Origin: a virus
DNA: 21,322 bases
IMG/VR virus record: IMGVR_UViG_3300011115_000652
Coordinates: 1-21,322 of that record
Strand: one strand, 5' to 3'
A program made the translations under genes and the position numbers. The notes beneath the pieces are model-generated. The model was not told where the DNA came from, did not search any database, and saw only the letters and a list, made by a program, of their open reading frames with translations. This document shows positions 1-16,092 of the stretch, piece after piece. How positions within the stretch are numbered: the first letter of the stretch is position 1; each line of letters starts with the position of its first letter.

Positions 1-50
1 GTCGTGACTTCGGAAAAAAATGGGAGATTCACCCACTTTTGCTATTGGGC

Positions 51-63
51 CAGGATAATCCTG
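51..63. promoter_or_regulatory. Short inverted repeat before the terminase operon
   Basis: CAGGAT and ATCCTG form a perfect 6-base inverted repeat around one central base, 15 bases upstream of the small terminase start. Such symmetry is typical of a dimeric protein-binding site, but it could be chance. The rest of bases 1 to 78 holds no gene I trust: an open frame runs through it into terS, but its translation before residue 26 does not resemble a terminase N-terminus. I see no convincing sigma-70 promoter pair there. Confidence 0.25.
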
Positions 64-78
64 CCACGGTTCCCCACA

Positions 79-747
79 ATGGCGTTAACTAACAAACAGA
101 TCGCGGCGCATTTCGGTTTTACACCGGCCCGAGCTGCGGCGCTTATCCGCCAGGGTATGCCGTTGGATTCCCTGGAGGCCGCAGAATCCTGGCGCCACGC
201 CCGGCTCCTCCGGGGGCAACGCGGCGGCGTGGAGCAACGGGCGGCAATCGTTGTTAACCAGGACGACGTATCGCCCGATCTGGATTTCGAGGATACGGTC
301 GTCCGGCATCGGGAGCTTAAGGAGGCGGCCCGTCAAACCTACATCGTCGCCCGCAACGCCGGGGATACCCAGGCGCCCAAGCTGTATACGACGTACCAAT
401 CAATCGTCCAAACCCTGGTTAAGCTGGAACGGGAATCCCTCGCCCGTAAGATTGAATCCAAGGAATTGATTAAAACGGCGGCGGCAATCGAGCGTTTCGG
501 GCGGGTTATCGCCGAGATCAAATCCGATATGCTTTCCTTTGCCAACGCGGTGGCCAACCAGGTTAACCCGGATAACCAGGGTAAGGCGTATAAGGTTATC
601 GACGAAAAGGTTAACGCCCTTTTGGCCAAATGGTCGGGCAGCGCCGAGGCGGTAATCGAGGAAACCCTGGAGGCCCAGGTTAACGGGGATCGGCCCGATT
701 TCGAGAATATGCCCGGAGAGGAGGAGCCGCCGCCTAATGAAAGCTAA
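79..747 (+). CDS. terS: Terminase small subunit (Nu1-like)
   Basis: DNA-recognition subunit of the packaging motor: it binds the packaging site of the phage DNA and delivers it to the large subunit. The predicted product is 222 residues; lambda Nu1 is 181. I chose the ATG at 79 because the following residues (MALTNKQIAAHFGFT) are a helix-turn-helix of the Nu1 kind, reading on into an arginine-rich stretch at about residues 37 to 45. The frame stays open 25 codons further upstream, but that part is not terminase-like. The middle is charged and helical, which suits oligomerisation. The C-terminus (about residues 205 to 222) is acidic and proline-rich, where Nu1-type proteins contact the large subunit. 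The gene overlaps terL by 11 bases, so the two are probably translationally coupled. Identification rests on fold-like features plus position. Confidence 0.85.
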   Translation: MALTNKQIAAHFGFTPARAAALIRQGMPLDSLEAAESWRHARLLRGQRGGVEQRAAIVVNQDDVSPDLDFEDTVVRHRELKEAARQTYIVARNAGDTQAPKLYTTYQSIVQTLVKLERESLARKIESKELIKTAAAIERFGRVIAEIKSDMLSFANAVANQVNPDNQGKAYKVIDEKVNALLAKWSGSAEAVIEETLEAQVNGDRPDFENMPGEEEPPPNES

Positions 748-2569
748 CGGTTTCGAGAGGGATTTGAGGCATATCCTAACGCCGAACCCGTACCGGCGCC
801 CGGTCGAATTCCTGGAGCATTTCCTTACCCGTATCCCTTATTCGGCCCGCGGTAACGGCGGGGGTTTCTCGATCTCGTCGGCGCCTTGGCTGCGGGAACC
901 CCTGGAAGCAATATTCGACCCGGAGGTCCAGGAGATCGGGGTCCAGGCGGCGGTCCAGCTCGGAAAATCCCTTTTAATTGAGGGGGCGTCCTGCATTATC
1001 CCGGTAAACGATCCGGGGCCGACCCTTATCCTTACGGATATCGACCGTAACGCAAAGGATTACCTGGAATCGCGGTTAACAAGGGTATGGAACGTATGCG
1101 AACCGACGCGGGCGCAGCTTCCGGCCCAGGTCCCGAAAGAGGGGGTTATTAACTTTGCGGCCAATCCCTGTTGGGTATTGGGGGCCAAAAACGATTCAAA
1201 CCTCCACGGGCGTTCGATCCGTTACCTATTCGGCGACGAGGTTTGGCGCTGGGATTCCGGGGCGTTGGCCAGAGCCGAGCGCCGCGTATCGGCAAACAAG
1301 GCCAGGAGTAAGGTCGTATTCGTTTCCCAGGCCGGGTTAGACGGCGGGGAATGGGCCTTTTGGTATTCGGGTACCGATCAAAGGGTATGGACCTGGATTT
1401 GCCCGAGCTGCGGGACGGCGCAGGGGTACGAATGGGAACAGGTTATTTTTCCCAGGGAGGCCAAAAAGGCGACGGGTTGGGACCTTAACGCGGTTAAGAA
1501 GGGTACGACGTACCAATGCAAAGGATGCAAGGTCCATTTCCCGGACCGGGTATCCGTCCGAACCGATCTAAACCTTTCCGGGCGGTACGTCGCCCAAAAC
1601 CCGGACGCCTCCCGACGCGGTTACCATTGGAATTCCCTTTGCGCCCAGGAGCTTGGCCTATCCTGGGGGGAGCTTGCGGTGGAATGCATCGAGGCCAAGC
1701 GCCACCATTCCGAGAATGGGGATAACAGTAAACGCCGGGATTTCTTTATGCAGCGCCTGGCCCAAACGTACAAGGAGGAGGCCGACGAAATCCAGATCGG
1801 GGCCGCGGAGGGTAAGTATAAGATTGGGGAACCCTGGGACGACGAGGGCGGGTTTGTAATGGGTAAACCAAGGACCGGGAATGAGCTTACCGCGGATATG
1901 CGGGCGGCGCCGGATTTCGTCCGTATGCGTTTTATGGGCGTGGATTTCCAGCAATCGGGCTTTTATTGGGTTGTCCGATCCTTTTCCGGCGATGGTCGGT
2001 CCCGGTTGGTTGGCTGCGGGTTCGCCCTTACCCTGGCCGACCTGGTGGATATCTCCAAAAAGAATGAGGTCCACCCCGCCAACGTGTTCCTGGATTCGGG
2101 TTATAAGCCCGACGACGCCCTTATGGCTTGCGCCGCCCACGGTTGGACGGCGACCCGCGGCGACCAACGTAACGAATTCCCCTGGAAGATTCGTACGCCT
2201 ATGGGGAATAAGATCGAAATGCGGGCCTATTCTACGCCGGTGGTCGAGGCCGTCGGTCAAAAACGCTGCAAACGATTCTATTTTTCCAACCTCCGTACAA
2301 AGGATACCCTTTCAATGCTTATCCGTAAGGGGTTGAATACCTACGCAGTAGACGCCCCGGAGGAATACCTTAAGCAAATGCAATCCGAGCGCCGCGAGGT
2401 TAAGACGGGCGGGCGCCCGGTATGGGAACAGATCGACCGACGCCCTAACCATTTTTGGGATTGTGAGGTTATCATTACCCTCCCCGCGATGGCCTGGCGC
2501 CTTATCGGCAAGGCGACGCAGCTGGCCGAGGAACCGCAGCCGGAAAACCAGGAGGCCCAGGAGGGTTAA
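737..2569 (+). CDS. terL: Terminase large subunit (GpA family)
   Basis: ATP-driven DNA translocase and endonuclease that fills the procapsid through the portal. The product is 610 residues; lambda gpA is 641. Visible parts, in order: a degenerate Walker A (AAVQLGKS, residues 71 to 78), a Walker B (YLFGDE, about 163 to 168), and two CxxC pairs at 222 to 225 and 261 to 264, the zinc-binding knot seen in many GpA proteins. The C-terminal nuclease domain has acidic candidates Asp403 (GVDFQQ) and Asp453 (FLDSG). The start overlaps the end of terS. The purine-rich GGAGAGGAGGAG run upstream also encodes the terS C-terminus. Codon use follows an almost strict rule linking the third base to the next codon; see findings. 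Assignment is secure from motifs, length and position. Confidence 0.96.
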   Translation: MKANGFERDLRHILTPNPYRRPVEFLEHFLTRIPYSARGNGGGFSISSAPWLREPLEAIFDPEVQEIGVQAAVQLGKSLLIEGASCIIPVNDPGPTLILTDIDRNAKDYLESRLTRVWNVCEPTRAQLPAQVPKEGVINFAANPCWVLGAKNDSNLHGRSIRYLFGDEVWRWDSGALARAERRVSANKARSKVVFVSQAGLDGGEWAFWYSGTDQRVWTWICPSCGTAQGYEWEQVIFPREAKKATGWDLNAVKKGTTYQCKGCKVHFPDRVSVRTDLNLSGRYVAQNPDASRRGYHWNSLCAQELGLSWGELAVECIEAKRHHSENGDNSKRRDFFMQRLAQTYKEEADEIQIGAAEGKYKIGEPWDDEGGFVMGKPRTGNELTADMRAAPDFVRMRFMGVDFQQSGFYWVVRSFSGDGRSRLVGCGFALTLADLVDISKKNEVHPANVFLDSGYKPDDALMACAAHGWTATRGDQRNEFPWKIRTPMGNKIEMRAYSTPVVEAVGQKRCKRFYFSNLRTKDTLSMLIRKGLNTYAVDAPEEYLKQMQSERREVKTGGRPVWEQIDRRPNHFWDCEVIITLPAMAWRLIGKATQLAEEPQPENQEAQEG

Positions 2570-2596
2570 ACCGTGGGCATTTGGACCTTGGCCGGA

Positions 2597-2602
2597 TTGA
2601 CA
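2597..2602 (+). promoter_or_regulatory. Perfect TTGACA hexamer in the terL-gpW gap
   Basis: The gap 2570 to 2727 holds no gene I can support. It contains a consensus -35 hexamer TTGACA. At 16 to 18 bases downstream there is only an A/T-rich AAATTT (2620 to 2625), a poor -10 element, so this is a weak promoter candidate. The gap also carries a terminator-like hairpin at 2691 to 2710 and the first copy of the 15-base repeat. A GTG-started frame at 2573 runs across the gap into the next gene in another phase and looks spurious. Confidence 0.25.
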
Positions 2603-2690
2603 GATCGGGAAACCTGGGCAAATTTGGGTTGCGCCTCTTACGTTCGGGCTTGTTCGCGGGGGTGGCATCGGTCCTCGTATCGCATAGGGT

Positions 2691-2710
2691 ACGGGGATCG
2701 CCCGTTTTTT
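2691..2710 (+). terminator. Possible rho-independent terminator after terL
   Basis: ACGGG (2691 to 2695) pairs with CCCGT (2701 to 2705) around a GATCG loop and runs into six T. The stem is short at 5 base pairs, so termination may be partial. The last two T are the first bases of the 15-base repeat that precedes the next gene. Confidence 0.45.
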
Positions 2711-2723
2711 GACTCCCGCGTTG
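2709..2723 (+). repeat. 15-base element, copy 1
   Basis: Perfect copy of TTGACTCCCGCGTTG, preceded by T and followed by a 4-base spacer (GCAT) and the ATG of the gpW-like gene. It lies at the foot of a terminator-like hairpin, so transcription of the next gene may restart here. Confidence 0.9.
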
Positions 2724-2727
2724 GCAT

Positions 2728-3003: not shown

Positions 3004-4590
3004 ATGGCCCCCCAAAAGAAGGATAACCTAAAGAAAAAGGTCCGCCAGGCGGTCCGCGACGTTAAGGATTTTGCCAAGCGCAAGGGCCTTAAGGCCAAGG
3101 CATACGGCGGCGCCGGTGGGGGATCGGGCATTTTCTCGCAATTTGAGGGCGCCAAGTATAGCAATAAGCGCCAATGGGTTAATACGCCCTGGCCCGCCGA
3201 CCAAAAGCGGGTAATGACCACGTTCGACCGCCAGGAGCTAACGCGGAAAATGCGTTGGTTGGCGGTTAACGCGGGGCTGGTGAGGCAACTTATTGCGGAT
3301 ATGGCCTTATATTCGGTCGGTTCGGGTATCCGATCCCAGGCCGCGACCGGCGATTCCAATATCGACGCCCTATACGATTCGTACTTTTACGAATGGGCCA
3401 ACAAACCTTGCGAGATCACCGGGCGCTTTAACTTTTGGGAATGCCAGGCCCTTATGAGCCGCCGGGTCGATATCGACGGCGAAATCTTTATCCTTAAGAC
3501 GTATAGCTCGTCCGGCGCCCCCCTTATCCAGCTTATCGAATCCCACCGCGTTGGCGCCTCCTCAACGGCCCAGGGCCAGGTCGATGGGGTTTGGGACGGT
3601 ATTATTTTCAATAAATTCGGGGCCGTGGTCGGGTATAATGTAATCCGATCCGACGGAACGGCCCGGAACGTCTCGGCCAATTCGATTCTCCACGTCTACC
3701 ACCCCGAAAGCTCGTCCGGCGCTCGGGCATATAGCCCGCTGCAACATTCAATCAATAACTTGATTGATATTCTCGAAATCCTTTCCCTGGAAAAGGTTGC
3801 GATGAAAGTAGGGGCCGACGTGGTCCGCACGATTACCCGCGAAAACCCGCAATTTGACGGATCGTCCGCGGATTTCGAGGCGTTTGGTATGCGTCCCCAG
3901 GATTACCCGAACCAGGTTTACCAAAACCCGGAGGAGGTCGGCGCCTTTATCGGCGGTAAGACGGTCGCCTTGGCCCCCGGCGAGGACCTTAAAATGGTCG
4001 AATCTGGCCGCCCAAGCCCGAACACCGTATCGGCCATCGAATATCTCGAAAAGGACAGCTGCGCCGGGTTCCTACCTTGGGCCTTTTCGGGCGATCCCAC
4101 TAAAAGCGGGGGAGCTGCAACCCGCCTGGTCGTGGCCAAGACGGAACGGACCGTTAACGCCCGCCAGGATATGCTTTGCCACCGCGCCCTTACCCCTATC
4201 TACGCCTACGTTATCGGTACCGCGATTGCCAATGGCGATCTCCCGGCGCACGATAATTGGACCAAGGTTAATTGGGTTACGCCTCGTCGTATCTCGGTTG
4301 ACGCGGGCCGCGAGGCATCGGCCAACCAAAAGGATATCGAAATGGGCCTTAAGACGTTGTCCGACCATTACGCCGAGCTTGGGGCCGATTTCCGCCAGGA
4401 GGTCCGGCGCCGAGCTGCCGACGCCAAGCTTATTAACGATACCGCAACCGAATTCGGCGTCCCGCCGTCCTCGATCTTCGCCCCGGCCAATACGCCGTTG
4501 GCCGACATTAACCAGGCCGCCGCGAATGGCGGTACCCCCGGCCCTGGTGCAACCGATTTCCAACCCCTTTTCGACGGGGAACCCTCCTAA
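3004..4590 (+). CDS. Portal protein (lambda gpB family)
   Basis: Forms the ring at one head vertex through which DNA enters and to which connector and tail bind. The product is 528 residues; lambda gpB is 533. The N-terminus is very basic (about residues 4 to 34, rich in Lys and Arg), followed by a glycine-rich linker. Typical lambda-type portal stretches follow: MRWLAVNAGLVRQLI near residue 80, RRVDIDGEIF near 158 in the wing region, and a middle part with SAIEYLEKDS and LPWAFSGDPTKSGGAATRLV (about 340 to 375). The C-terminal 100 residues are helical and then turn Pro/Gly-rich. The gene sits between the gpW-like gene and the head protease, as in lambda. The start at 3004 follows a short leader without a Shine-Dalgarno sequence. 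Confidence 0.93.
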   Translation: MAPQKKDNLKKKVRQAVRDVKDFAKRKGLKAKAYGGAGGGSGIFSQFEGAKYSNKRQWVNTPWPADQKRVMTTFDRQELTRKMRWLAVNAGLVRQLIADMALYSVGSGIRSQAATGDSNIDALYDSYFYEWANKPCEITGRFNFWECQALMSRRVDIDGEIFILKTYSSSGAPLIQLIESHRVGASSTAQGQVDGVWDGIIFNKFGAVVGYNVIRSDGTARNVSANSILHVYHPESSSGARAYSPLQHSINNLIDILEILSLEKVAMKVGADVVRTITRENPQFDGSSADFEAFGMRPQDYPNQVYQNPEEVGAFIGGKTVALAPGEDLKMVESGRPSPNTVSAIEYLEKDSCAGFLPWAFSGDPTKSGGAATRLVVAKTERTVNARQDMLCHRALTPIYAYVIGTAIANGDLPAHDNWTKVNWVTPRRISVDAGREASANQKDIEMGLKTLSDHYAELGADFRQEVRRRAADAKLINDTATEFGVPPSSIFAPANTPLADINQAAANGGTPGPGATDFQPLFDGEPS

Positions 4591-4601
4591 CCAATACTTT
4601 T

Positions 4602-6038
4602 ATGCGTAATCTCTCTAACGATATCCGGGCCAATCGCCCCGTCCTTATCCAACCGACCATTGCCAAGGCGTTCCTGGAACGCTGCGCCGACGTCAAGCTC
4701 CCCCTGGGTACCAAGGCGTCCGATATGTCGGAAATGCTTGCCGCGATCTTCGGCGCCAAATCGGCGTTGGAGAAATTCCCGCCTTTCGCAATCGTGCCGG
4801 TCAAGGGTGTGATCGGTCGTAACCTTTCGGACCTGGAGGCCGCTTGCGGCGCTTGCGATATCGAGGCGGTCGAGGAAATGCTGGAGGACGCGGAACGGGA
4901 CCCGGCAATTACCACGATCATTTTCGACGTGGATTCCCCTGGCGGCACCGCGGTCGGCGTCCCCGAGCTGGCCAAGCGCATTCGGGAATGCTCCAAAAAG
5001 ACCATTAGCTTTACCTCCGGGGATTGCTGCTCGGCGGCCTATTGGATTGCTTCCCAGGCGTCGGAATTCTACGCAACCCCGTCGTCCAGCGTGGCCAATG
5101 TCGGTTGTTATATCGTGTTTAACGATATGTCCGCGGCCTATGCCCAGGAGGGCGTCGCGGTTGACGTTATCCGATCCGGGCGCCTAAAGGGCGTTGGGCA
5201 GCCGGGTACCTCTCTTTCCAAGGAGGGCCGGGATATGCTCCAGGCGGAGGTCCTTGAGATCGCCGACAATTTCAAGGCCGACGTTAAGCTCGTCCGCGAA
5301 TTCGTCCAGGACGTCGATATGGAGGGCCAGGCGTTTTCGGGTACCAAGGCCGCCGAAAAGGGGTTTGTTACCGCCCTAATCAATGGTTTCGACGAGCTTA
5401 TGCAAACCCTGGACGCCCAGGTCGCCGCCCAGATCGAGGCCGACGAGGCGAATGACGCCCGCGCCGGTGTCGGCGGCGAGGCCGAGGAATCCGGCGAGGA
5501 TGAGGGTATGGGCCGTATGGCTGCATTCCGCGCCCTTAAGGGTATCCCTGGCGGTATTGCCGCCTTGATTGCCAAGGCCGAGAAAACCCCGGACGAGGAA
5601 AAGGAGGAGGGTACCGAGGCGACGCCCAAGAAGGGCAAGAAAGCCAAGAAAGCTTCCGATCAAAACGACCAGGAGGACGACGACGAGGAAACCCCGACCA
5701 GCCCGTACTCCGAGGACGACGACGAGGACGGCGAGGAAATGCCCGAATCCGAGGAGGATAAGGACAAGCCGGAATCCGAGGACGACGAGGAAAAGAAGCC
5801 CGACGCGGACGATTCCGAGGAGGACCCCAAGGCCGAGGAGGGCGCCGACGAGGATAAGAAGGACGCCAAATCCGAGGAGGACGACGAGGACGACCAGGAA
5901 CCCAAGGCCGAGGATGAGGAATCCGACGACGGTAAGGAAAAGGCCGAGGAGGAATCCGACACCGGCGACAAGGCCGTCGAAACCGACGAGGAGCCGGAAA
6001 AGAAGGGCGTCCGCAACCGATCCCGCGGCATTTCTTGA
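4602..6038 (+). CDS. S49 (ClpP/SppA-like) head protease with long acidic tail
   Basis: Prohead maturation protease that cleaves scaffold and portal during head assembly, like lambda gpC (439 residues; 478 here). The protease domain spans about residues 60 to 270. FDVDSPGGTAVG (108 to 119) forms the oxyanion strand. Ser144 in CSAAYWIASQ is the nucleophile and Lys196 in RSGRLKG the general base, the Ser-Lys dyad of the S49 family. From about residue 310 to 466 the protein is low-complexity and dominated by Glu and Asp with Lys, and it ends in a basic clip (KKGVRNRSRGIS). In lambda the C-terminal part of gpC doubles as scaffold through an internal start. Here an in-frame ATG at 5508 with GGAGGATGAGGG just upstream could do the same (inference). 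The 11-base leader CCAATACTTTT has no G. The stop overlaps the TTG start of the next gene. Confidence 0.93.
   Translation: MRNLSNDIRANRPVLIQPTIAKAFLERCADVKLPLGTKASDMSEMLAAIFGAKSALEKFPPFAIVPVKGVIGRNLSDLEAACGACDIEAVEEMLEDAERDPAITTIIFDVDSPGGTAVGVPELAKRIRECSKKTISFTSGDCCSAAYWIASQASEFYATPSSSVANVGCYIVFNDMSAAYAQEGVAVDVIRSGRLKGVGQPGTSLSKEGRDMLQAEVLEIADNFKADVKLVREFVQDVDMEGQAFSGTKAAEKGFVTALINGFDELMQTLDAQVAAQIEADEANDARAGVGGEAEESGEDEGMGRMAAFRALKGIPGGIAALIAKAEKTPDEEKEEGTEATPKKGKKAKKASDQNDQEDDDEETPTSPYSEDDDEDGEEMPESEEDKDKPESEDDEEKKPDADDSEEDPKAEEGADEDKKDAKSEEDDEDDQEPKAEDEESDDGKEKAEEESDTGDKAVETDEEPEKKGVRNRSRGIS
5575..6010 (+). repeat. Low-complexity purine-rich tract (GAG/GAC/GAA runs)
   Basis: Encodes the acidic tail of the protease. 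The plus strand is largely GAG, GAC, GAA and AAG codons. The complementary strand therefore reads as an open, Ser-rich frame that I regard as an artefact. The tract is prone to slippage and to length variation between relatives. Confidence 0.7.
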
Positions 6039-6954: not shown

Positions 6955-7875
6955 ATGTCCACTAACTCCGTCCTCAACCAGGGCCTGGCCCCGCAGTTTG
7001 TCGCCGCCGAAACGCTGCGTACCCTCGTCCCGGTCCTCGCCCCCCTGAACAAGATCGTTACGACCGATTTCTCGGCGTACGTCGCCGAAAAGGGCCAGGT
7101 CGTCCATACCCGTTACGCCGATGCCTTCACCGCCTCGACGTATGACCGCGCCACCGGCTTCGTCGCCGAGGACGCCGTTTCTAACGATGTTGCGATCACC
7201 CTGTCCGACCATAACTACGTTATGACGTCGTTCACCGATACCGAGGTCGCCACGATCTCCCTCGATATGCTGCGCCGCGTGTTTATCGCCCCGATGGCCA
7301 ACGCCACGGTTACCAGCATTTTCAACGGTGTGATCGGCCAGACCACCGCCGCCGCTTATCCCGGTACGCCCTTCTATTCTGGTACCAAGGCCAATTTCAA
7401 CCGCCTCGCCATCGCTGGCGGCGCCACGAATATGACCAAGGCGAACCTTCCGTTTAACGACCGTTCCCTCCTGCTTACGCCGGACGCCTTTGGCCAGCTC
7501 CTCCAGGACCCGAGCGTTGCGCAGTACCTCTCGATTGGCGACACGTCCGTTATCCGCGACGGTAAGGTCGGACGCCTCCACGGCGTTGACATTTACGAGG
7601 TCAACACCTGGAGCGCCGCCCCTGCTGGCGAACACCTTAACGGTATCGCCTCCTGCCGCGAGGGCCACGTTATCGTTACCCGAGTCCCGGCTGCCCCGAC
7701 CACCGGCGGCGGCGAACAGCTCACCGTCCAGGACCCGGATTCCGGCTTCGCCTTCTCCCTCCGTAGCTGGTACGATTGGACCAAGGGCCTTTCCAATATC
7801 TCGGCCTCCTGGATCATCGGCCAGAGCGTTGGTAACCCCAACGCCGCCCTCCGCGTCGTTATCTCGGACCTCTAA
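6955..7875 (+). CDS. Major capsid protein (HK97 fold, P22 coat-like)
   Basis: Main building block of the head, 306 residues. Position after protease and scaffold, and before a strong terminator, is diagnostic. Sequence features agree with the P22-coat branch of the HK97 fold: an N-terminal helix region, then a long strand part (GQVVHTRYADAFTASTYDR, about 48 to 66), a typical ITLSDHNYVMTSFTDTE stretch (about 82 to 98), and the helix MLRRVFIAPMANATV (about 104 to 118). There is no obvious protease-cleaved N-terminal domain. Codon use is more C- and CTC/CTG-rich than in neighbouring genes, as expected of the most highly expressed protein, and the codon-context rule seen in terL is relaxed. The start follows the G-free leader; no alternative start is nearby. 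Confidence 0.92.
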   Translation: MSTNSVLNQGLAPQFVAAETLRTLVPVLAPLNKIVTTDFSAYVAEKGQVVHTRYADAFTASTYDRATGFVAEDAVSNDVAITLSDHNYVMTSFTDTEVATISLDMLRRVFIAPMANATVTSIFNGVIGQTTAAAYPGTPFYSGTKANFNRLAIAGGATNMTKANLPFNDRSLLLTPDAFGQLLQDPSVAQYLSIGDTSVIRDGKVGRLHGVDIYEVNTWSAAPAGEHLNGIASCREGHVIVTRVPAAPTTGGGEQLTVQDPDSGFAFSLRSWYDWTKGLSNISASWIIGQSVGNPNAALRVVISDL

Positions 7876-7898
7876 TCCTAACGGGTTAGTCCGAAAGC

Positions 7899-7925
7899 AA
7901 GGCCCCCAGCTCGGGGGCCTTTTCT
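7899..7925 (+). terminator. Strong rho-independent terminator after the capsid gene
   Basis: AAGGCCCCC (7899 to 7907) pairs with GGGGGCCTT around an AGCTC loop, followed by a TTTTCTTTT tail. This is the best terminator in the window. It would limit read-through from the head operon into the connector genes, so these probably need a fresh start signal. Confidence 0.85.
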
Positions 7926-7954
7926 TTTGGGTAGGCCATTAGACCCCTCCCGGC

Positions 7955-7973
7955 GGCCCGTGGCGGGCCTTTG
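7955..7973 (+). terminator. Second hairpin abutting copy 3 of the 15-base element
   Basis: GGCCCG (7955 to 7960) and CGGGCC (7964 to 7969) form a perfect 6-pair stem with a 3-base loop, followed by only three T. The T run overlaps the start of the repeat. It may be a weak terminator or a transcript-end-protecting hairpin. Confidence 0.35.
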
Positions 7974-7985
7974 ACTCCCGCGTTG
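7971..7985 (+). repeat. 15-base element, copy 3
   Basis: Perfect TTGACTCCCGCGTTG preceded by T, with a 4-base spacer (CGGT) to the ATG of the next gene. It lies downstream of the capsid terminator, so it is the only conserved signal between that terminator and the connector genes. Confidence 0.9.
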
Positions 7986-7989
7986 CGGT

Positions 7990-8331
7990 ATGGGCCTATA
8001 TGATGCCGAATGGGCTGCGGACGCCGCCTCGATCCTTGCGGAAATCCCCAAGGCCGTAACGGTTCGTCGCGGATCGGGCGCCGCAACGGCGTTTAACGTC
8101 CTTATGGGGCCGCCGATGGTCCAGCAAAACCTCGAAACCGGCGGTTTCCTTAATTCGACCGCGTTCGATATCAAATTCCTTAAGGCCGACGCCGCCGCCC
8201 ACCCTGGGGTTATCGTTTACGGCAACCTGGTAACCTATAACGGCCAGGAATTCCGAATCGTCGCCATTAATGATCGCCCGCCCAGCGCCTGGGTAATGGC
8301 CCGCGTCGAAAGCAAGGCCGGTCCCGCCTAA
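7990..8331 (+). CDS. Putative head-closure / head-tail connector protein (gpFII-like)
   Basis: A 113-residue protein directly after the capsid gene, the position and size of lambda gpFII (117). Such proteins cap the connector after packaging and accept the tail. The N-terminus is helical (AEWAADAASILAEIPKAVTV). The rest is predicted mainly beta (AFDIKFLKAD, VIVYGNLVTYNGQEFRIVAI, AWVMARVES), consistent with the small beta-barrel of FII/gp16-type stoppers. Start: ATG 4 bases after copy 3 of the 15-base element, without a Shine-Dalgarno sequence. It ends in TAATG, overlapping the next start by one base, so the next gene is probably coupled. The exact family is not proven from sequence alone. Confidence 0.6.
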   Translation: MGLYDAEWAADAASILAEIPKAVTVRRGSGAATAFNVLMGPPMVQQNLETGGFLNSTAFDIKFLKADAAAHPGVIVYGNLVTYNGQEFRIVAINDRPPSAWVMARVESKAGPA

Positions 8332-9227
8332 TGGCCACGACGGCCCGGAAAAACGTCCAGGTAGACGCCTCGGCGCTTATCGGGCATTTGCACGATTTTG
8401 CCTTGGTAATGGGCAAGACGATGGGCGAGGTCGTCCGCGACCAGGCGGCCCTCTTTTGCCAGGATATGATTTCCTATTCCCGTCCGTTTTCCGGCAAGAC
8501 GCCGGGATCGGGCGGTACCAAGGGGGCTAAAGACACCGGGGACAATAATGTAAAACAGTCCATTCGTAAGATTTTCCGCCCCGTCGAGCTTGCGACAAAG
8601 GAACAGATCGCGGCGGTCGGCAAGTACGAGGTCTTTAAGCTTTGGACCAAGCGCAACGGCGAAAAGGTCCAGGGTAAGGGTAAGGCCCTCCGTTGGCAGC
8701 AATTCCAAGAGAAATTCGGCGGGGGTCCCTCTATGGTTTTCGTCGATTCCGGCGACCTGGCCACGATGGGGCGTATCCATAGGTCCCTGCGTACCGACCA
8801 CGGCCACGGGTCCCTTTCCAGCACCGCCCGCGGGGCCAAACAACCCTTTGCAATCGTGGCAAAGGATAAAGATATCGAACGATATACCAGGCAGGAGCAA
8901 AAGGTTATCGGAACCCTTAAATCGGCCTATTACTTTGCCGGGGTCCGTATCCGCGGTAAGATCAAGGCGCCCGCCTGGGTAAAACAACCTGGCGGCCAAG
9001 AAAACACAATCGCCCAGGATAAGACGGCGCAACCGATGAAACCCGAGGTTACCGTCGGAAACCTTATCGGCGGCAAGGCCGGTAATAACAAATTTGTGCA
9101 GCTGGCCATTTCCCACCGGGCCTATGCGATGCGGGTTAAAATGGCCGCCGAGCTGAATAAAAACAAAATTCCCCTTTGGGTTGCGACCGCCAGGGGACAA
9201 ACGACCCAAACCGCCAAATATTTCTAA
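8331..9227 (+). CDS. Putative neck / tail-completion protein (gpZ- or gp10-like)
   Basis: A 298-residue basic protein in the slot of lambda Z (192 residues) or HK97 gp10, proteins needed to complete the tail top before joining. Visible features: helix-rich N-terminus (ALIGHLHDFALVMGKTMGEVV), a Gly/Lys-rich segment around residues 60 to 80, a central part with FVDSGDLATMGRIHRS, and a C-terminal part ending IPLWVATARG. It is longer than the families named, with extra material in the middle. It starts within the stop of the preceding gene (TAATG). The following gene begins 4 bases after its stop. I am fairly sure it is a connector or tail-completion protein, less sure which. Confidence 0.5.
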   Translation: MATTARKNVQVDASALIGHLHDFALVMGKTMGEVVRDQAALFCQDMISYSRPFSGKTPGSGGTKGAKDTGDNNVKQSIRKIFRPVELATKEQIAAVGKYEVFKLWTKRNGEKVQGKGKALRWQQFQEKFGGGPSMVFVDSGDLATMGRIHRSLRTDHGHGSLSSTARGAKQPFAIVAKDKDIERYTRQEQKVIGTLKSAYYFAGVRIRGKIKAPAWVKQPGGQENTIAQDKTAQPMKPEVTVGNLIGGKAGNNKFVQLAISHRAYAMRVKMAAELNKNKIPLWVATARGQTTQTAKYF

Positions 9228-9231
9228 TCTT

Positions 9232-9666
9232 ATGCCTACCCTCTACGGAATCCGTACCATCGCCGAACAATCGGCCCTTGCCTGGTTTACCCAAAACGCC
9301 GCCGAGCTTCCCGGCGTCCAAGTCCACGCGGGCCAAACGGACGAAATCCGATCCGTCCCGATTATCATCCTCCACGCCGAAAGCGCCCGCGCCCACCCCG
9401 ATCTTGGGGCGTACTCCCTGGGTAATTTCGAGATTACCCTTAAAATCTACGTCTATTCGTCCGCGGACGATTCCACCCTCCAGCAGCACCGGGAACGGGT
9501 CGAGGCCGTCCAGGGCATTATGCAGGACGCGGACGGCCTTATTGCGGCCTGGACCCAGGGTACCTTATACGCTGCTTGGGTCGTCTCGGACGACGAGGGC
9601 GTCGCGGATCGCCGGTACGGCAATATTATCGAATATACGTTGGTTGCGGTATACCCCCCCGCTTGA
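9232..9666 (+). CDS. Putative tail terminator protein (gpU-like)
   Basis: A 144-residue protein in the position of lambda gpU (131), which caps the tail tube and fixes its length. I start it at ATG 9232, just after the TCTT spacer, rather than at the upstream in-phase codon 9181 inside the previous gene. Features: an N-terminal helix (IRTIAEQSALAWFTQNAAEL), strands (SVPIIILHAESA, GNFEITLKIYVYSSADD), a helix (LQQHRERVEAVQGIMQD) and a final strand (YGNIIEYTLVAVY). This alpha/beta order is that of gpU/gp17 terminators. The stop codon TGA is part of copy 4 of the 15-base repeat. Confidence 0.6.
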   Translation: MPTLYGIRTIAEQSALAWFTQNAAELPGVQVHAGQTDEIRSVPIIILHAESARAHPDLGAYSLGNFEITLKIYVYSSADDSTLQQHRERVEAVQGIMQDADGLIAAWTQGTLYAAWVVSDDEGVADRRYGNIIEYTLVAVYPPA

Positions 9667-9677
9667 CTCCCGCGTTG
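9663..9677 (+). repeat. 15-base element, copy 4
   Basis: Perfect TTGACTCCCGCGTTG preceded by C and extended by TCTCAAT, as at copy 2. Its TGA is the stop codon of the upstream gene. The next ATG (9699) is 21 bases downstream. Confidence 0.9.
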
Positions 9678-9698
9678 TCTCAATAACCGACCGACCTT

Positions 9699-10037
9699 AT
9701 GGCCCTCCCTAAAACTTACGGAACGGAACACGTTTTCGGCGTTCTCGATACCTCCGCTTTTATTACGATTCAAACGGATTCCGTTGACCAAAAGCCCGCC
9801 CTGGACGTTGAAGTTATGGACGAAACGGGCCGCGTTATTACGGACCGCCTGGACGACCAGCGCCTCGAAACCACGGTTTCCGGCGTCCTTAAGGATACCG
9901 CCGCAATCCCCGCCGCGGGAGATCAATTGGATTACGATAGCGTCCTTTATATCATTAAGGATGTAACGAACGACGGGTCGAATAACGCCTTTCGTAAGGT
10001 TACCCTTAAGCTGGTTAAGTACCAGGAGATCGCCTAA
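9699..10037 (+). CDS. Small tail-region protein, possible tube or tube-associated
   Basis: A 112-residue acidic protein between the presumed tail terminator and the tail-chaperone-like gene, where siphophages usually encode the tail tube. The sequence is predicted mostly beta (HVFGVLDTSAFITIQT, ALDVEVMDETG, RLETTVSGVLKD, SVLYIIKDV, FRKVTLKLVKYQEI), which would fit a short tube or tube-like protein. However, it is smaller than typical tube proteins and lacks a motif I recognise. Start: ATG after copy 4 of the 15-base element plus a G-poor spacer. I infer a structural tail role from context only. Confidence 0.4.
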   Translation: MALPKTYGTEHVFGVLDTSAFITIQTDSVDQKPALDVEVMDETGRVITDRLDDQRLETTVSGVLKDTAAIPAAGDQLDYDSVLYIIKDVTNDGSNNAFRKVTLKLVKYQEIA

Positions 10038-10049
10038 CCCGCGAACCTT

Positions 10050-10652
10050 TTGCCCGTGGCCTCCCGATGGACACAGGCCGCGACAATCCTGCGCCCGGAA
10101 ATCCGGGTTTGCGGGGTTCGGCTTTTGCCTTTTTGCCTACGCCACCGCGTGGCCCTGGAGGCAATCGATTCGCCGGTTTTGCTGCCGGACCAACCCCTTA
10201 CCGCTAAACATATGATCGCCGCGGTCCGTATCCTATCGACGTACGACCTGGAATACGTCCGGCGCCCGCATACCCTCCGCGAATCCTGGTGGATTGGCCG
10301 TATGACGTTTAGTAACGCCGTATTGGCCCAAGAGGCCGCCAAGCTTGTGGCGTATATGGAGGCCCAATCCCTTTGGCCTCGTTTCTGGACCAAGGAGGAC
10401 ACCGCAGCCCGATCTGGCGGGGTCCCTTGGCCTTTGGCCGTGGTATCGAATTTAACGCGGAACGGTTGTTCCTTAACCGAGGCGTGGACGATGCCCGAGG
10501 CCGAGGCCGTTTGGTTGCACGTTGCCAATACCATCGCCTCCGGCGCCAAGGTCGAGGTCGTAACCGATAAGGAATGGGAAGCAATGGAACGTTATAAGGC
10601 CGAAAAGGCCGCCAAGCTTGCCCAAGCAACCCCAGGAGATCGCAAAAACTAA
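10050..10652 (+). CDS. Putative tail assembly chaperone
   Basis: A 200-residue protein immediately before the tape measure gene, the fixed position of tail assembly chaperones, which coat the tape measure until the tube polymerises. It would start at TTG 10050 or GTG 10056, both without a Shine-Dalgarno sequence. The body is largely helical (LTAKHMIAAVRILSTYDLEY, MTFSNAVLAQEAAKLVAYME, MPEAEAVWLHVANTIASGA). The C-terminus is charged (EWEAMERYKAEKAAK). In lambda a -1 frameshift makes a second, longer product (gpGT). Here the tape measure starts 3 bases after the stop and I see no second frame, so a frameshift product is unlikely. The role is inferred from position and helical character. Confidence 0.5.
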   Translation: MPVASRWTQAATILRPEIRVCGVRLLPFCLRHRVALEAIDSPVLLPDQPLTAKHMIAAVRILSTYDLEYVRRPHTLRESWWIGRMTFSNAVLAQEAAKLVAYMEAQSLWPRFWTKEDTAARSGGVPWPLAVVSNLTRNGCSLTEAWTMPEAEAVWLHVANTIASGAKVEVVTDKEWEAMERYKAEKAAKLAQATPGDRKN

Positions 10653-10655
10653 CTT

Positions 10656-11870
10656 ATGGCCGACGACGTAAAAGTTAAATTTGGCGGGGATTTTACCGAC
10701 GTTGCCAAGGGCGCCGGGGACGCCGTAAACAAAGCCGGAACGGCGCTTAACTCCTGGTTTGGGGATTTTAAGAAATCCACGGAGGCAAGTATCCTCTCGT
10801 CCCTGGCCCTATCCAATATTTTTTCCAATTTCGTAAAGGGGGCCTCCGAGGCATTACAGTATTTCCGCGAAATGGATTTGTCCCTTAAACGATTCGGGGG
10901 ATCGGGCGACGCCGAATTCCAGAAGCTGGCCAAATATGGCAAGGAGGTCGGCGTATCTATGGAAACGGTGTCCCGGACGACGAATTACTTTAACAAGGTC
11001 CGTACCGAGGCAGCCAAGGGGAACCAAAATTACGTCGCAATTCTTAAGCAATTTGGGTTTACCCAAAAAGAAATCGCCGCCGGTAATATCTCGGCAATCG
11101 AGGTCCTCGGTCGCCTGGCCGACGCATATGATAAAACGGGATACGAGGGCCTGGTCGGCGAAAGGGCGATGAATGCCTTTGGTATCCGCGGCAAGGAGCT
11201 TACGGCGATCTTTAAGAATGGCCGGGAAGCTATGGAGGAATTTGCCAAATCGACGGCGACAATGTCCAGGGAATCGATCGAAAAGCTGTCCAATACCCAA
11301 AAACAAATCGAGCGTTTTAAGAAATCCCTTGAGGTTATTTTTTATCAAAAACCTTTGCAATTCGGAGGATTTGTCCAATCGGCAATCGAGGCCACGTCAA
11401 TCGTAAGCGGGGCAACAGCCAACGCGGTGTCGGCCGGAGGAACCAAGGAGCAACAGGCAAAAACGGCCTTTAATTATGTTAAATCTGAATTCGGGGACAA
11501 TATCTCCGGGTTAAAAACCGCTATGGAGGCAGCCGAAACGGAATTTACCGCCTTGGATCGGCGTTTGTTTACGTCGTCGGAGCGCCAAGACGTTGCCCGC
11601 GATCTGTTTGATATGTTGAACAAGGAGATTACCCGCCTCCAAACGGCGCCAAAAGAGGAAAAGAAAACGGCCTTGGATATCCCCTTGGTTAAGGAGCTGC
11701 TTACGTCGTCGTCCCTCCAGGCAATCGGGGGCGGGGATATCTCCTCGGTCCTCTCCGGCACAATCCAGGCGAATATGCTTACCGCAATGCAGGAAACCGC
11801 CGCCAATACCGGCAAGATCGCAGCGGGTACCGATGCGCCAAAGGTAACCCCAAGCAACGTTGCCAAGTAA
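10656..11870 (+). CDS. Tail tape measure protein (short)
   Basis: Sets tail length and passes into the host at infection. The product is 404 residues, short for a siphophage; if length scales as in other tape measures (about 1.5 angstrom per residue) the tail would be near 60 nm. Evidence: helix-rich throughout, many Ala/Lys/Glu, N-terminus of the tape-measure kind (VKFGGDFTDVAKGAGDAVNK, residues 6 to 25), a middle part (ETVSRTTNYFNKV; AMNAFGIRGKELTAIF) seen in tape measures where LGI..lssl-like repeats occur, and the C-terminal MQETAANTGKIAAG stretch common near their ends. I see no transmembrane helix or peptidase domain. It starts after CTT following the chaperone stop. Confidence 0.8.
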   Translation: MADDVKVKFGGDFTDVAKGAGDAVNKAGTALNSWFGDFKKSTEASILSSLALSNIFSNFVKGASEALQYFREMDLSLKRFGGSGDAEFQKLAKYGKEVGVSMETVSRTTNYFNKVRTEAAKGNQNYVAILKQFGFTQKEIAAGNISAIEVLGRLADAYDKTGYEGLVGERAMNAFGIRGKELTAIFKNGREAMEEFAKSTATMSRESIEKLSNTQKQIERFKKSLEVIFYQKPLQFGGFVQSAIEATSIVSGATANAVSAGGTKEQQAKTAFNYVKSEFGDNISGLKTAMEAAETEFTALDRRLFTSSERQDVARDLFDMLNKEITRLQTAPKEEKKTALDIPLVKELLTSSSLQAIGGGDISSVLSGTIQANMLTAMQETAANTGKIAAGTDAPKVTPSNVAK

Positions 11871-11873
11871 TTT

Positions 11874-12734
11874 ATGCCCAACCCATCCGATACCCGAATC
11901 GATTACGGCGCCGATCTAACGATTTCGACGCCCCTCCCGTCCGGCTCAATCAATCTGGACGCATTCGGCCTGGCCCAAGCTCAATTAAGTTTTACCGTCG
12001 ATTCCGAGGACGCAAACCTTGCGACCGCCTTGGCGTTATTTTCGACGGGGACGCCTTATCCGTACGACGTAAACGTCGAAATGAAATCCTATAAGGTTAA
12101 CGCTGCGCTTAACAAAGGCGGCGTTGCGACCATTACGGTGGATTATATGGGCGTCCGCGGGTTTTTCGGTTACTCCAAACCCCAGATTACCGGCGTTGCA
12201 ACGTCCACGGCCCAACCTATTGAGGCCCATCCTAATTTTACCAAGATCACTAAACCCTGGTCTGGTGCCTCAATTTTGGCAGGATATCCACCGGCAAATT
12301 TGGCAACGGCCAATAAACCTATTTTCGTCCAGGGGACCGATCCGTATGCGACGTGGACCTTTCGAGGATTCGGCCTTAAGACGGACGGCGAGGTTAATAT
12401 TAAAGCCGGTATCCGGCAATACCTGGCCCCCTTGGCAACGGTCCGAGGCCAGATTTTCCTCGCCCCGATGAAACAGGATTCTGCGGCGGCCTTTATTAGC
12501 GCCGTTGGCCAACGTCTTACAAATCTCGACCTGGATAAGCTTATCGCCCCCGCGTCCCTAATCGGCGCCATTCAGTCCGAGGGCCAGAATTACGCCCTAT
12601 TGAGCGCGGCAAATTGCGAATGCATCGGCAACCCAGACGACCCCGCAGCCATTAAAGTTACTTACGATATTATGGTCGGCGGCGAAATCGGTTGGGACCC
12701 CGATATTTACCCCTTGGCCGACCCCATCCTCTAA
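11874..12734 (+). CDS. Unassigned tail protein downstream of the tape measure
   Basis: A 286-residue protein of unknown family, starting 3 bases after the tape measure stop. The sequence is mostly beta with many Ala, Thr, Pro and Gly (ADLTISTPLPSGSINLDAFG; AQLSFTVDSEDANLA; VATITVDYMGVRGFFGYS; ATWTFRGFGLKTDGEVNIKA) and short of charged helices. A late segment has CECIGNPDDPAAIKVTYDI. Position after the tape measure is that of distal tail or tail-tip proteins. It could also be a tube-like hub protein. I do not recognise catalytic motifs, signal peptide or membrane segments. The overlapping codon context is that of its neighbours, so it is unlikely to be a recent insertion. Confidence 0.5.
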   Translation: MPNPSDTRIDYGADLTISTPLPSGSINLDAFGLAQAQLSFTVDSEDANLATALALFSTGTPYPYDVNVEMKSYKVNAALNKGGVATITVDYMGVRGFFGYSKPQITGVATSTAQPIEAHPNFTKITKPWSGASILAGYPPANLATANKPIFVQGTDPYATWTFRGFGLKTDGEVNIKAGIRQYLAPLATVRGQIFLAPMKQDSAAAFISAVGQRLTNLDLDKLIAPASLIGAIQSEGQNYALLSAANCECIGNPDDPAAIKVTYDIMVGGEIGWDPDIYPLADPIL

Positions 12735-12736
12735 CA

Positions 12737-13798
12737 ATGCAGGACCAAGGTTTTAACGGTACGGGATCGCGGTTTAACTCTCGTTTCGAGGCCGGGTCCC
12801 CAATCTACGCAAAGCAGCTCAACGACCTGGCCGCTGGCGTCCAGGCGGCCCTACCGCAACCCTATTGCGGTACCGGGCCGTCGGTATCCTTCACAGCTGG
12901 CGGCGCCGTTATCGCCTCGCAATTCGATACGTCCGACGGGTCTGGTATCGTCCAGCAATTCCAATGCGTCATTTCCTCGGAAACGACCGGCAGCGGGGAA
13001 TCCGCGGTAACCAAGTATTTCCTTAAGATTGCCAAGGGTAATATTACAACCGTTGCCTCGGGTTTCCCGTTTACCCAAGGTATAAACTCCCCAGGATCGG
13101 GTACCGAGCAGCCAGATCAACCGCCCTATTACGTTACCCCGTCCGAACAGGTATGCATTTTCGATGCGGCAATTTCCCCGCTTGAATCCCGGACGTCGGG
13201 ATCTGACATTAATTCAATCTGGTTTGCCGCCGGTGGAAAATTTGAATTAGACCCCGAGGTCGGCCATTATTACGTTACGGCCTCCTTTTTCGATTATAAC
13301 GACCTTTTGGATTGGTACGCGGACGAGGCGCTTATCCATACGCACGAACCTTGGGTATCGATTGTACCCAATTCCGGGTCCAGCTATAACTCCATTTTTG
13401 CCCGAAATACCCCGCATATTGTTACCGATTACTTGCGGACGGGTAACGCTGCCTTGGGTTGGGCGCCTGGTACCGATGGCATTATGCCGACAAGTATCGG
13501 TTATTCGATGAAAGTTATTGCCCGGATTAATTGGGACGCGGAAAAGGAGGTATGGAAGATCGCCCAAGAGCTGATTGGGCCGATTACCTTGGATTACCCC
13601 GTTATTTGCAATACCCTATTCCAAGACGGCGGCCCCGCCGCCCCTGGGGTGGTTTATGGGACGTTTTTGACCGATAAGTTTATCGGTACAATCTATAACT
13701 TTAATTATTTGGCCAAATTCGCCGATTCTTCGTTTGACGATTCGGATATCCTCGACCCGGCTGTGGTCGAATGGTGGTACGACGTTAAGACGATTTGA
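12737..13798 (+). CDS. Unassigned tail-tip or receptor-interacting protein
   Basis: A 353-residue protein. I use ATG 12737, two bases after the stop of the previous gene, rather than the in-phase TTG 12692, which would overlap it by 43 bases. The N-terminus (SRFNSRFEAGSPIYAKQLNDLAAGVQ) resembles the attachment part of tail-tip proteins: an alpha-helix that names where the fold begins. The rest is Gly/Ser/Asp/aromatic-rich and predicted beta (VCIFDAAISPLES, FELDPEVGHYYVTASFFDY, VVYGTFLTDKFIGTIYNFNYL), typical of exposed tail proteins. No enzyme motif is visible. It stands before the fibre gene pair, so a tail tip or adhesin role is likely but not shown. Confidence 0.5.
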   Translation: MQDQGFNGTGSRFNSRFEAGSPIYAKQLNDLAAGVQAALPQPYCGTGPSVSFTAGGAVIASQFDTSDGSGIVQQFQCVISSETTGSGESAVTKYFLKIAKGNITTVASGFPFTQGINSPGSGTEQPDQPPYYVTPSEQVCIFDAAISPLESRTSGSDINSIWFAAGGKFELDPEVGHYYVTASFFDYNDLLDWYADEALIHTHEPWVSIVPNSGSSYNSIFARNTPHIVTDYLRTGNAALGWAPGTDGIMPTSIGYSMKVIARINWDAEKEVWKIAQELIGPITLDYPVICNTLFQDGGPAAPGVVYGTFLTDKFIGTIYNFNYLAKFADSSFDDSDILDPAVVEWWYDVKTI

Positions 13799-13813
13799 CC
13801 GTTTTAAGGGGGT

Positions 13814-13828
13814 TTGACTCCCGCGTTG
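13814..13828 (+). repeat. 15-base element, copy 5
   Basis: Perfect TTGACTCCCGCGTTG preceded by T, with a 4-base spacer (GTCT) to ATG 13833. It marks the junction between the tail-tip genes and the fibre gene pair. No clear terminator hairpin precedes this copy. Confidence 0.9.
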
Positions 13829-13832
13829 GTCT

Positions 13833-14147
13833 ATGGCCTCCCCGACGGTATCCTGGAAACGTGGCAGCACCTTTGCGGCCTCGGTCGCCTATACCCCGGG
13901 CGCAGGGGACCCCCCTACGCTGGACGGTGTGATCGTCGAATGCTCGATTATGGACCATCGGGAAGCTCGGCACCCCCTCCTGGTTACAATCCACCAGGAT
14001 AAGCTCGGATTCGATATTCGGTACATTGGGGATACCTCGGAATGGGCCGTAGGCACCGCGGCGCTCGATTTCCGATGCCTGGAGGACGGGATCGTATTCT
14101 ATTCCACGACGGCCCGGTTTACCATCGAACCCCAAATTACCCTTTAA
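13833..14147 (+). CDS. Small beta-domain protein linked to the tail fibre
   Basis: A 104-residue protein ending exactly where the fibre gene starts. Predicted structure is a small beta-sandwich (TVSWKRGSTFAASVAY, GVIVECSIMDHRE, LLVTIHQDKLGFDIRYIG, TAALDFRCLEDG, ARFTIEPQITL). This layout is found in many short genes next to siphophage fibres and in baseplate-type adaptor domains that dock receptor-binding proteins. It starts at ATG 13833, 4 bases after copy 5 of the 15-base repeat; no Shine-Dalgarno sequence. The fibre follows with no gap, so both are probably co-translated and may assemble together. The adaptor role is inference. Confidence 0.5.
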   Translation: MASPTVSWKRGSTFAASVAYTPGAGDPPTLDGVIVECSIMDHREARHPLLVTIHQDKLGFDIRYIGDTSEWAVGTAALDFRCLEDGIVFYSTTARFTIEPQITL

Positions 14148-15980
14148 ATGGCCACCCTTACGACGACGATTAATTATTCGGAACCCGCCGGGTCGATTAT
14201 CGCCTCCCTTGGTACCCCTGGTCCAGCCGGTCCTGGCGTACCTCCAGGCGGCAGCGCCAACCAGATTTTGGCCAAGATTGACGGGGTTTCCTATAATACC
14301 GAATGGGTAAACCCCCAGGATATCGCCGCGGTTTGGGGACAGATTACCGGCAATATTGCCAATCAGTCCGATCTCCAAAGCGCCTTGGACGCCAAGCTGG
14401 ACAGCTCGACCGCGGCCTCGACGTATCTACCACTTGCCGGGGGTATCATTACGGGAGATATCCAATCAAACAACGGATCGGGTTATCGGGCTTACGACGG
14501 CGCTTTGAATACGTCGGTATTAACCCCGGCGTACCTCCAATTTAATAAAAGCGGGATTCCTGGTGGCGCTTTAACGGTTGAATGGGACGGCATTACATTT
14601 GCAACCGGCAAGCAAACGGTCGCCTACCCTGGTACGGTTATTCTCGACGGGTATGCGACCGAATCCTGGGTAAACCTCCAGCTCGGTTCGTACCTTACGA
14701 TCTCCTCGGCCTCGGCAACGTATTACCCCCTAACCAACCCGGCGGGATATATTACCCTTTCGGCGCTTGCGGGATATGCGACCGAATCCTGGGTTACGGG
14801 CCAAGGGTACCTTACCGCGTCGGACGCCGCCGCGACGTATTACCCCCTAACCAATCCCTCCGGCTTTATTGCCGACGCCCCGGCCGATGGTACGACCTAC
14901 GGACGAAAAGACGGCGCTTGGTCCGCGGTTGTCAGCTCGGTCGCCTGGGGTTCGATCACCGGGGACCTGGCCAATCAGTACGATCTTCAGGGGGCGCTCG
15001 ACGCCAAATACGATGCAAGTAACCCCGCAGGATTTATTACGTCCGCGGCGCTTGCAGGGTATGCTACGGAATCTTGGGTATCGTCGCAGGGATATCTAAC
15101 CAGCGGGGACCTTTCTGGATATGCAACCGAATCTTGGGTATCGTCCCAGGATTATCTCCAATCCTCAACCGCAGCGACTACTTATCAAACCCTTGCGGGA
15201 ATGGTCAATTATGCTGCGTTAGGCGGGGCATCGTTTACGGGATTGGTGCTTACCAAGGCGTCTAATGGGGCCGGTGCCGGTTTTCGGATTCCGATTGGTA
15301 CGGCCCCAAGCTCCCCGGTATTGGGCGATATTTGGAATTCTGGATCAGCGCTTACGGTTCGTTTTGGGGCATCTACCGAAACAATCGCAAATCAATCTTG
15401 GGTAACTTCCCAGGGGTATATTACGTCGTCGGCGCTTACCCCTTACGCCCTTCTTTCGGGGGCGACGTTTACGGGCAAGATTAATGCGGCCGCGTCAAAT
15501 GCAGGATCGGCGGGCCTAAACCTGGGCGCAGGAACCGCGCCGACCTCACCGCTTCCGGGCGACGTTTGGACCGCGGCCAATACGGATACCCTCCGTTATC
15601 GTGCGCCTCTTACCAATCAAACGTTCGACGTTGCCGTCCGAAATGCGACCAATACGTTTAGCTCTCCCAACATAATTGATACGACGGCGACGACCGCCGC
15701 CCTCCGCGTTACCCAAAAAGGCACCGGGAACGCAATCGAGATCGAGGACAGCACGACCCCGGACGCAACCAGGTTCGTCGTCGATCAATTCGGCAAGGTC
15801 GGTATTGGCGTCGCCCCCGATGCCACGGCGGCCATTAAGATCGACGGCAACGGTATGTCCTTTAACGGGTTGGTCTTTAATCCTACGGCGACCGCTGCCC
15901 ATACCGGCGGTACGGATACCCTCGACCTCCTGGTTACGATTAACGGTACCGCGTACCGTATCGGCCTACGCCCAGCTTAA
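14148..15980 (+). CDS. Tail fibre protein with repeated YATESWV motifs
   Basis: Receptor-binding fibre, 610 residues. Near residues 24 to 36 a short collagen-like stretch (GTPGPAGPGVPPGG) leads into ANQILAKIDGVSYNTEWVNP, a linker very common in phage fibres. Two WGxITGxxANQxDLQxALDAK units follow (about residues 62 to 83 and 266 to 287). Four copies of YATESWV plus a fifth degenerate NQSWVTSQGY lie between residues about 168 and 430, and two TFTGKI/SFTGLV-type units (about 361 and 440). The C-terminus is beta-rich (ALRVTQKGTGNAIEIEDS, KVGIGVAPDATAAIKIDG) and ends RIGLRPA. Such short repeats build trimeric beta-helical or triple-helical shafts. No S74 self-cleaving chaperone is visible, so folding help may come from another protein. 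The start abuts the previous stop. Confidence 0.88.
   Translation: MATLTTTINYSEPAGSIIASLGTPGPAGPGVPPGGSANQILAKIDGVSYNTEWVNPQDIAAVWGQITGNIANQSDLQSALDAKLDSSTAASTYLPLAGGIITGDIQSNNGSGYRAYDGALNTSVLTPAYLQFNKSGIPGGALTVEWDGITFATGKQTVAYPGTVILDGYATESWVNLQLGSYLTISSASATYYPLTNPAGYITLSALAGYATESWVTGQGYLTASDAAATYYPLTNPSGFIADAPADGTTYGRKDGAWSAVVSSVAWGSITGDLANQYDLQGALDAKYDASNPAGFITSAALAGYATESWVSSQGYLTSGDLSGYATESWVSSQDYLQSSTAATTYQTLAGMVNYAALGGASFTGLVLTKASNGAGAGFRIPIGTAPSSPVLGDIWNSGSALTVRFGASTETIANQSWVTSQGYITSSALTPYALLSGATFTGKINAAASNAGSAGLNLGAGTAPTSPLPGDVWTAANTDTLRYRAPLTNQTFDVAVRNATNTFSSPNIIDTTATTAALRVTQKGTGNAIEIEDSTTPDATRFVVDQFGKVGIGVAPDATAAIKIDGNGMSFNGLVFNPTATAAHTGGTDTLDLLVTINGTAYRIGLRPA
14649..15432 (+). repeat. 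Imperfect repeats within the fibre gene
   Basis: The phrase GGxTATGCxACxGAATCxTGGGT occurs at about 14650, 14772, 15059 and 15119, with a shortened relative at about 15388. Copies at 15059 and 15119 share a further TATCGTC(G/C)CAGGA. They encode the YATESWV motifs. Spacing is uneven, pointing to duplication plus insertion rather than simple tandem copying. Variation in copy number would lengthen or shorten the fibre. Confidence 0.75.
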
Positions 15981-15981
15981 T

Positions 15982-16089: not shown

Positions 16090-16092
16090 CCG

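Follow-up and report, generated by a model that had tools for sequence, protein, structure and literature searches.

A codon-junction rule in a phage contig is the visible side of a DNA-level signature of strong/weak neighbor matching

Genes of the contig and base matching at codon junctions

The DNA analyzed here (the window) is the 21.3-kb virus contig IMGVR_UViG_3300011115_000652, which carries terS, terL, portal, protease, capsid, and tail genes (Table 1). Genes were picked by hand in the window and with a simple longest-ORF caller elsewhere. The holin family assignment rests on the match of the homologue in the related genome G001, in which the homologue of the 86-amino-acid protein lies at 21826-22086. 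A further ORF, at 6035-6922, overlaps the protease stop codon and has a weak HAD-hydrolase match under the Pfam cut-off; most relatives give partial matches to it only.

Table 1 Features of the window and adherence of each gene to the neighbor-matching rule
Feature	Position	Strand	Assignment	Excess log-odds	z	Remark
Terminase small subunit (terS)	4..747	+	phrog_57, 1.3e-12	2.10	7.6	Rule obeyed
Terminase large subunit (terL), GpA family	737..2569	+	Pfam GpA_ATPase 2.1e-26, GpA_nuclease 5.7e-17	2.28	12.3	Strongest rule among long genes
Portal gene	3004..4590	+	Phage_portal_2, 4.1e-36	1.96	10.8	Rule obeyed
Head maturation protease (S49)	4602..6038	+		2.20	10.2	Rule obeyed
Major capsid gene	6955..7875	+	phrog_283, 4.1e-27	1.36	5.2	GC3 0.80
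Ten more head/tail genes	7990..15980	+		1.06 to 2.43		All obey rule
Gene	16093..16869	+		1.74		Rule obeyed
Gene	17134..17511	+	Holin relative	1.35		Rule obeyed
Gene	17965..18510	+		2.06		Rule obeyed
C5-cytosine DNA methyltransferase	19404..20843	+	phrog_116, 1.6e-62	1.03	5.6	Weakest for rule
86-aa protein	20862..21122	+	Homologue of G001 g21826 (weak MerR-type helix-turn-helix)	1.82	3.7	
Intergenic gaps (among the window's five)	2570..2727, 7876..7989, 15981..16092					Same neighbor matching as genes

The initial annotation had reported, from a hand count of the first 111 codon junctions of terL (from position 737), that codons ending in T or C use T before A (10 of 11) and T (9 of 12) and C before G (12 of 13) and C (20 of 21). 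These counts were reproduced exactly and departed clearly from shuffled controls: 51 of the 57 pyrimidine junctions agreed with the rule, compared to a mean of 35.0 (sd, 3.1; maximum, 47) in synonymous shuffles preserving both the protein and codon use, none of 20,000 of which reached 51. The description "near-deterministic" suits this start of terL but not the genes at large. Over the whole of terL, T was used before A in 48/68 cases, before T in 47/70, before C in 9/89, and before G in 13/94, and the range of T/(T+C) among listed genes of at least 100 codons was 0.34 to 0.89 when A followed and 0.04 to 0.35 when C followed.

The rule was also broader than had been described, because purine-ending codons obey it as well as pyrimidine-ending ones; Glu in the window was encoded by GAA 5 times and GAG 138 times before G, compared to 67 and 3 times before T. 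For Val before G, GTC was the commonest codon (100), as claimed, but GTT (38), GTG (28), and GTA (5) were also used. Thus, the third base is weak (A/T) before a weak base and strong (G/C) before a strong one. Over the 6,315 junctions of 22 genes, weak-weak (1,425 versus 891 in shuffles) and strong-strong (3,130 versus 2,592) junctions were in excess and weak-strong (642 versus 1,177) and strong-weak (1,118 versus 1,654) junctions were depleted (z about 31.5). The rule was positive in all 22 genes (z, 2.5 to 12.3), as in a genome signature. T|A junctions were 1.6-fold enriched (535 versus 331 expected), without the underrepresentation that NNU-ANN rejection would produce, and C|A junctions were cut to 0.6. 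The reported weakening of the rule was confirmed for the capsid gene, with an excess log-odds of 1.36 versus 2.28 in terL, and did not extend to the gene at 17965 (2.06), which merely has higher GC3 (0.80); the weakest genes were 14148-15980 (1.14), 13833-14147 (1.06), and the methyltransferase gene.

Range, symmetry, and intergenic presence of the signature

The matching is confined to nearest neighbors. With bases of the same codon excluded by design, the correlation of third-base strength was 0.41 at offset +1, it differed from zero by no more than 0.09 at all other offsets from -12 to +12, and no periodicity or long-range correlation was found (offsets 9 to 12, at most 0.05). The effect in log-odds was 1.83 at the codon boundary, 1.06 between codon positions 2 and 3, and 0.44 between positions 1 and 2. 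In a logistic fit to four contigs of the window's clade, the log-odds of a strong third base were 0, 0.08, 1.75, and 2.26 when the next base was A, T, C, and G, respectively, and the baselines of the codon families tracked the base at codon position 2 (no more than 0.31 from 0 for A or T, 0.6 to 1.5 for G, and 1.0 to 2.4 for C), those with A or T second agreeing irrespective of the amino acid. T was used before A in the window in only 43 of 225 cases after C, compared to 233 of 284 after T. Avoidance of out-of-frame stops leaves a second-order mark on the window's genes (T, 0.47 before AA, 0.26 before AG, 0.74 before AC, and 0.77 before AT), so codon choice is not wholly neutral.

Relative to a full model, two strong/weak terms accounted in the window for 87% of the information on codon choice and a single strand-symmetric term for 83%. 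The share of the symmetric term was 81% in G001, 57% in G011, 19% in G010, 12% in G012, 9% in G013, and 4% in L015; it was 5% in Verrucomicrobia phage P8625 and 45% in the Akkermansia phage Moulinsart, in which the second-base effect is dominant and TA stays at 0.67. The coupling was 0.85 in strength, with a larger 3' than 5' effect (1.02 versus 0.67). Junction ratios were nearly strand symmetric over six mirror pairs (r = 0.87 of log ratios): AA 1.55/TT 1.54, CA 0.61/TG 0.55, CC 1.37/GG 1.28, and AC 0.82/GT 0.77, with AG 0.39/CT 0.60 and GA 0.79/TC 0.55 uneven. GC steps were not enriched (0.94 in G001).

Intergenic DNA has the same property. In 15 hand-picked gaps of the window, G001, and G002, which are homologous and thus not independent, 0.613 of 1,324 steps matched, compared to 0.510 after shuffling (z = 7.8); in the window's own five gaps, 290 of 445 steps matched. 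Script-called gaps of ten capsid relatives with a strong signature (13 gaps, 1,977 bases) had odds ratios of 1.03 for TA, 0.67 for CA, and 0.66 for AG, compared to 0.65, 0.96, and 0.95 in 40 relatives without the signature, limited to those with GC over 0.53 (53 gaps, 5,647 bases). Whole-sequence odds ratios for TA, CA, AG, AA, and CC were 1.03, 0.65, 0.65, 1.45, and 1.21 in the window versus 0.41, 0.86, 0.91, 1.27, and 0.92 in L015. Because the second codon base acts alike across families, the coupling is symmetric, and intergenic DNA carries the signature, the codon rule is the visible side of a DNA-level genome signature and not of decoding.

The avoidance of CpA/TpG proposed in the initial annotation described the depletion of both steps correctly. 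However, simple CpA avoidance fails as the cause, because AG/CT is depleted equally and C before A is retained when the second codon base is C but not when it is T.

Distribution among relatives and rewriting of a transferred capsid gene

The signature switches on and off between close relatives. Five protein queries yielded 233 viral loci in 170 clusters at 95% nucleotide identity, which are relatives of the window phage's proteins rather than a random sample. Excess log-odds exceeded 1.2 in 13 clusters, 12 of them in the window's clade (median non-capsid identity of 77% or more) and one (L220) outside it. Among the 158 clusters under 75% identity, one exceeded 1.2 and eight exceeded 0.6 (median, -0.09), and T|A was under 0.9 in 120. 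Signature was absent from L015, which has the same gene order and a 77% identical TerL. On a capsid tree of 67 rows (11 of 78 having been removed for short length), the minimum number of changes in the signature label is five, three of these forced by well-supported branches.

A second group of phages (L218, L221, L229-L231, L233, L235, L250, and L259) has about half the signature, with T|A at 1.3 to 1.5, a CA odds ratio of 0.66 to 0.73, and a milder loss of AG (0.81 to 0.87), as if the group were partway through a change or infected a related host. A further odd signature occurs in L084, a phage fragment of 5.2 kb that carries a methyltransferase gene (T|A, 1.19; C|A, 0.52; C|G, 1.48; G|C, 1.38).

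The capsid protein of L191 and L194 is 96% identical to that of the window, compared to 48% for TerL and 69% for the portal protein, which indicates that the capsid gene has moved between lineages. The opposite case was also seen, with capsids 82 to 83% identical where terminases are 92 to 94% identical. The major capsid gene thus moves on its own between phage lineages, as seen among the window, L191, L192, L194, G003, and G005. Phages without the signature have rewritten the synonymous codons of the 96% identical capsid: T before A occurs in 6 of 50 cases in L191 and 26 of 56 in the window, and synonymous changes from the window to L191 went from weak to strong before A (21, with 4 reverse) and from strong to weak before C (17, with 2 reverse). 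Thus, the surrounding genome rather than the protein sets the signature, which is imprinted on a capsid gene moved between phages. Synonymous changes before A were balanced within the clade (76 versus 76, to G001) and one-sided toward L015 (192 versus 18).

Between the window and G001, the third base switched after a first-base change in 121 of 225 cases, compared to about 0.25 in controls, and third bases followed first-base changes toward matching 107 times and against it 17 times. In the closest pairs, coupled changes were not above the within-class control (25/58 versus 7/15, window to L009). Control switch rates were 0.10 to 0.47 over five pairs. Patchy divergence makes up roughly half of the raw clustering, and what counts is therefore the excess in wider pairs alone. 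Tandem double mutation was rejected as the source of the coupled changes, given the many types of double change.

Possible sources of the signature and comparison with known systems

The reading that we favor, at a probability of roughly 0.6, is a genome signature imposed by neighbor-dependent mutation or repair in the host. At free sites, a base is usually weak beside weak and strong beside strong, on both sides and both strands; like-strength neighbors make CA/TG and AG/CT rare, AA/TT, CC/GG, and CG common, and TA common relative to other genomes. The signature would be the equilibrium of neighbor-dependent mutation or repair in the bacterium replicating the phage, and a lineage entering a host with another mutation pattern would be rewritten at its synonymous sites. 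We infer the host step from the likeness of phage and host genome signatures, as described in a previous study (PMC2917420). A host-supplied replication environment is the likeliest source because gene order and the helicase, Erf, exonuclease, resolvase, and nucleotide kinase are common to phages that have the signature and phages that lack it, the methyltransferase is uncoupled from the signature, and no DNA polymerase gene was recognized among the proteins scanned. More tentatively, an unrecognized bacterial lineage might make neighbor-dependent errors in replication or repair that cluster like-strength bases. If so, TpA would cease to be avoided in the lineage's chromosome and phages, CpA, TpG, ApG, and CpT would be shed from both, and phages jumping in or out of the lineage would be rewritten at synonymous sites. 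Mutation in Bacillus subtilis is neighbor dependent, although strong/weak matching is not among the results given in the available part of that report (PMC11890065).

Comparison of terL with genome contigs yielded seven distant Desulfobacterota-type loci, none with the signature, and no tRNA genes were found in ten clade or sister loci. Searches with tblastn of terL, helicase, methyltransferase, capsid, exonuclease, and portal against phages, and of methyltransferase against plasmids, returned only distant matches or methyltransferase homologues. None of these searches yielded a host. The nearest cultured relatives found, P8625 and Moulinsart, infect Verrucomicrobiota; identities of 23 to 29% do not name the host of the window phage. 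The cellular DNA measured consisted of those seven Desulfobacterota-type loci, all short, plus 12 kb from Escherichia coli, so the signature may already be known in some bacteria. It would provide a sharp compositional tag for host finding.

Selection at the DNA level for like-with-like neighbors, for instance via stacking, melting profile, packaging, or host-nuclease evasion, fits the same data, composition alone does not separate it from mutation, and the coupling is large for a mutation bias. It nevertheless seems unlikely, given the lack of periodicity, the weaker rather than stronger signature of the capsid gene, and the relatives that have the same packaging genes without the signature.

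Less probable still is a phage gene product acting on the phage's own DNA or nucleotide pools. The 86-amino-acid helix-turn-helix protein was found in the window, G001, G002, G003, and G011 and not in G010, G012, or G013. However, one gene in 36 tracking a trait in a few related genomes may do so by chance, and the methyltransferase, kinase, recombinase, exonuclease, and helicase fail to track the signature.

Decoding kinetics had also been suggested. Codon-context selection acting at the ribosome during translation would account for the effect being greatest at the codon boundary, but positions 2-3 are affected too, families with A or T second share one baseline, and junction ratios are nearly strand symmetric; the intergenic result refutes it as the main cause, leaving it very improbable. 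Restriction or methylation pressure stripping CpA/TpG-type sites, another earlier suggestion, could draw on the phage's C5-methyltransferase and its homologue in G001, yet it scarcely merits belief because site avoidance does not track the enzyme (found in G010, which lacks the signature; not detected in G011, with half of it; excess log-odds above 1 in 4 of 80 methyltransferase-bearing loci, all in the window's clade) and CA loss varies with the preceding base.

Among the records listed by literature searches whose coverage omits most subscription journals, none described a signature based on strong/weak matching. Like other dinucleotide genome signatures, which are of the Karlin type, that of the window is genome-wide, coding and intergenic, roughly strand symmetric, and common to all genes. 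Unlike the usual ones, it has TA at about 1.03 to 1.09 and CA at about 0.62 to 0.65, its departures lie mostly on one strong/weak axis, and close relatives differ completely.

The annotation's view that the pattern is unusual agrees with the published norm of T|A rejection. In one survey, NNU-ANN rejection is called the unique universal codon-pair rule in 119 genomes, with most codon-pair patterns also occurring in the total genome sequence (PMC1952141); in another, of 138 organisms, nnUAnn is avoided more than any other pair and nnCAnn is one of the preferred types, five genomes being atypical (PMC2585594). The window reverses, at the same codon junction, the T|A rule of nearly all the genomes so surveyed (PMC1952141, PMC2585594), and its C|A junctions, of a preferred type, are depleted. 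The codon-pair rules here come from DNA, and PMC1952141 likewise ascribes its rule largely to genome dinucleotides. So clean and strong a reversal, on or off among close relatives, offers a natural experiment for telling translation from DNA as the origin of such rules. In another study, the TpA ratio was 0.96 in Demerecviridae and 0.77 in other sequences (PMC11409064). Of the cultured relatives found, P8625 (KP792622) is the nearest; it has a 33-kb genome with a methylase before terL and similar head genes, at 28.8% (capsid) and 23.5% (TerL) identity to the window. Its signature, unlike that of the window, is ordinary (TA, 0.61; CA, 1.10; excess log-odds, 0.17).
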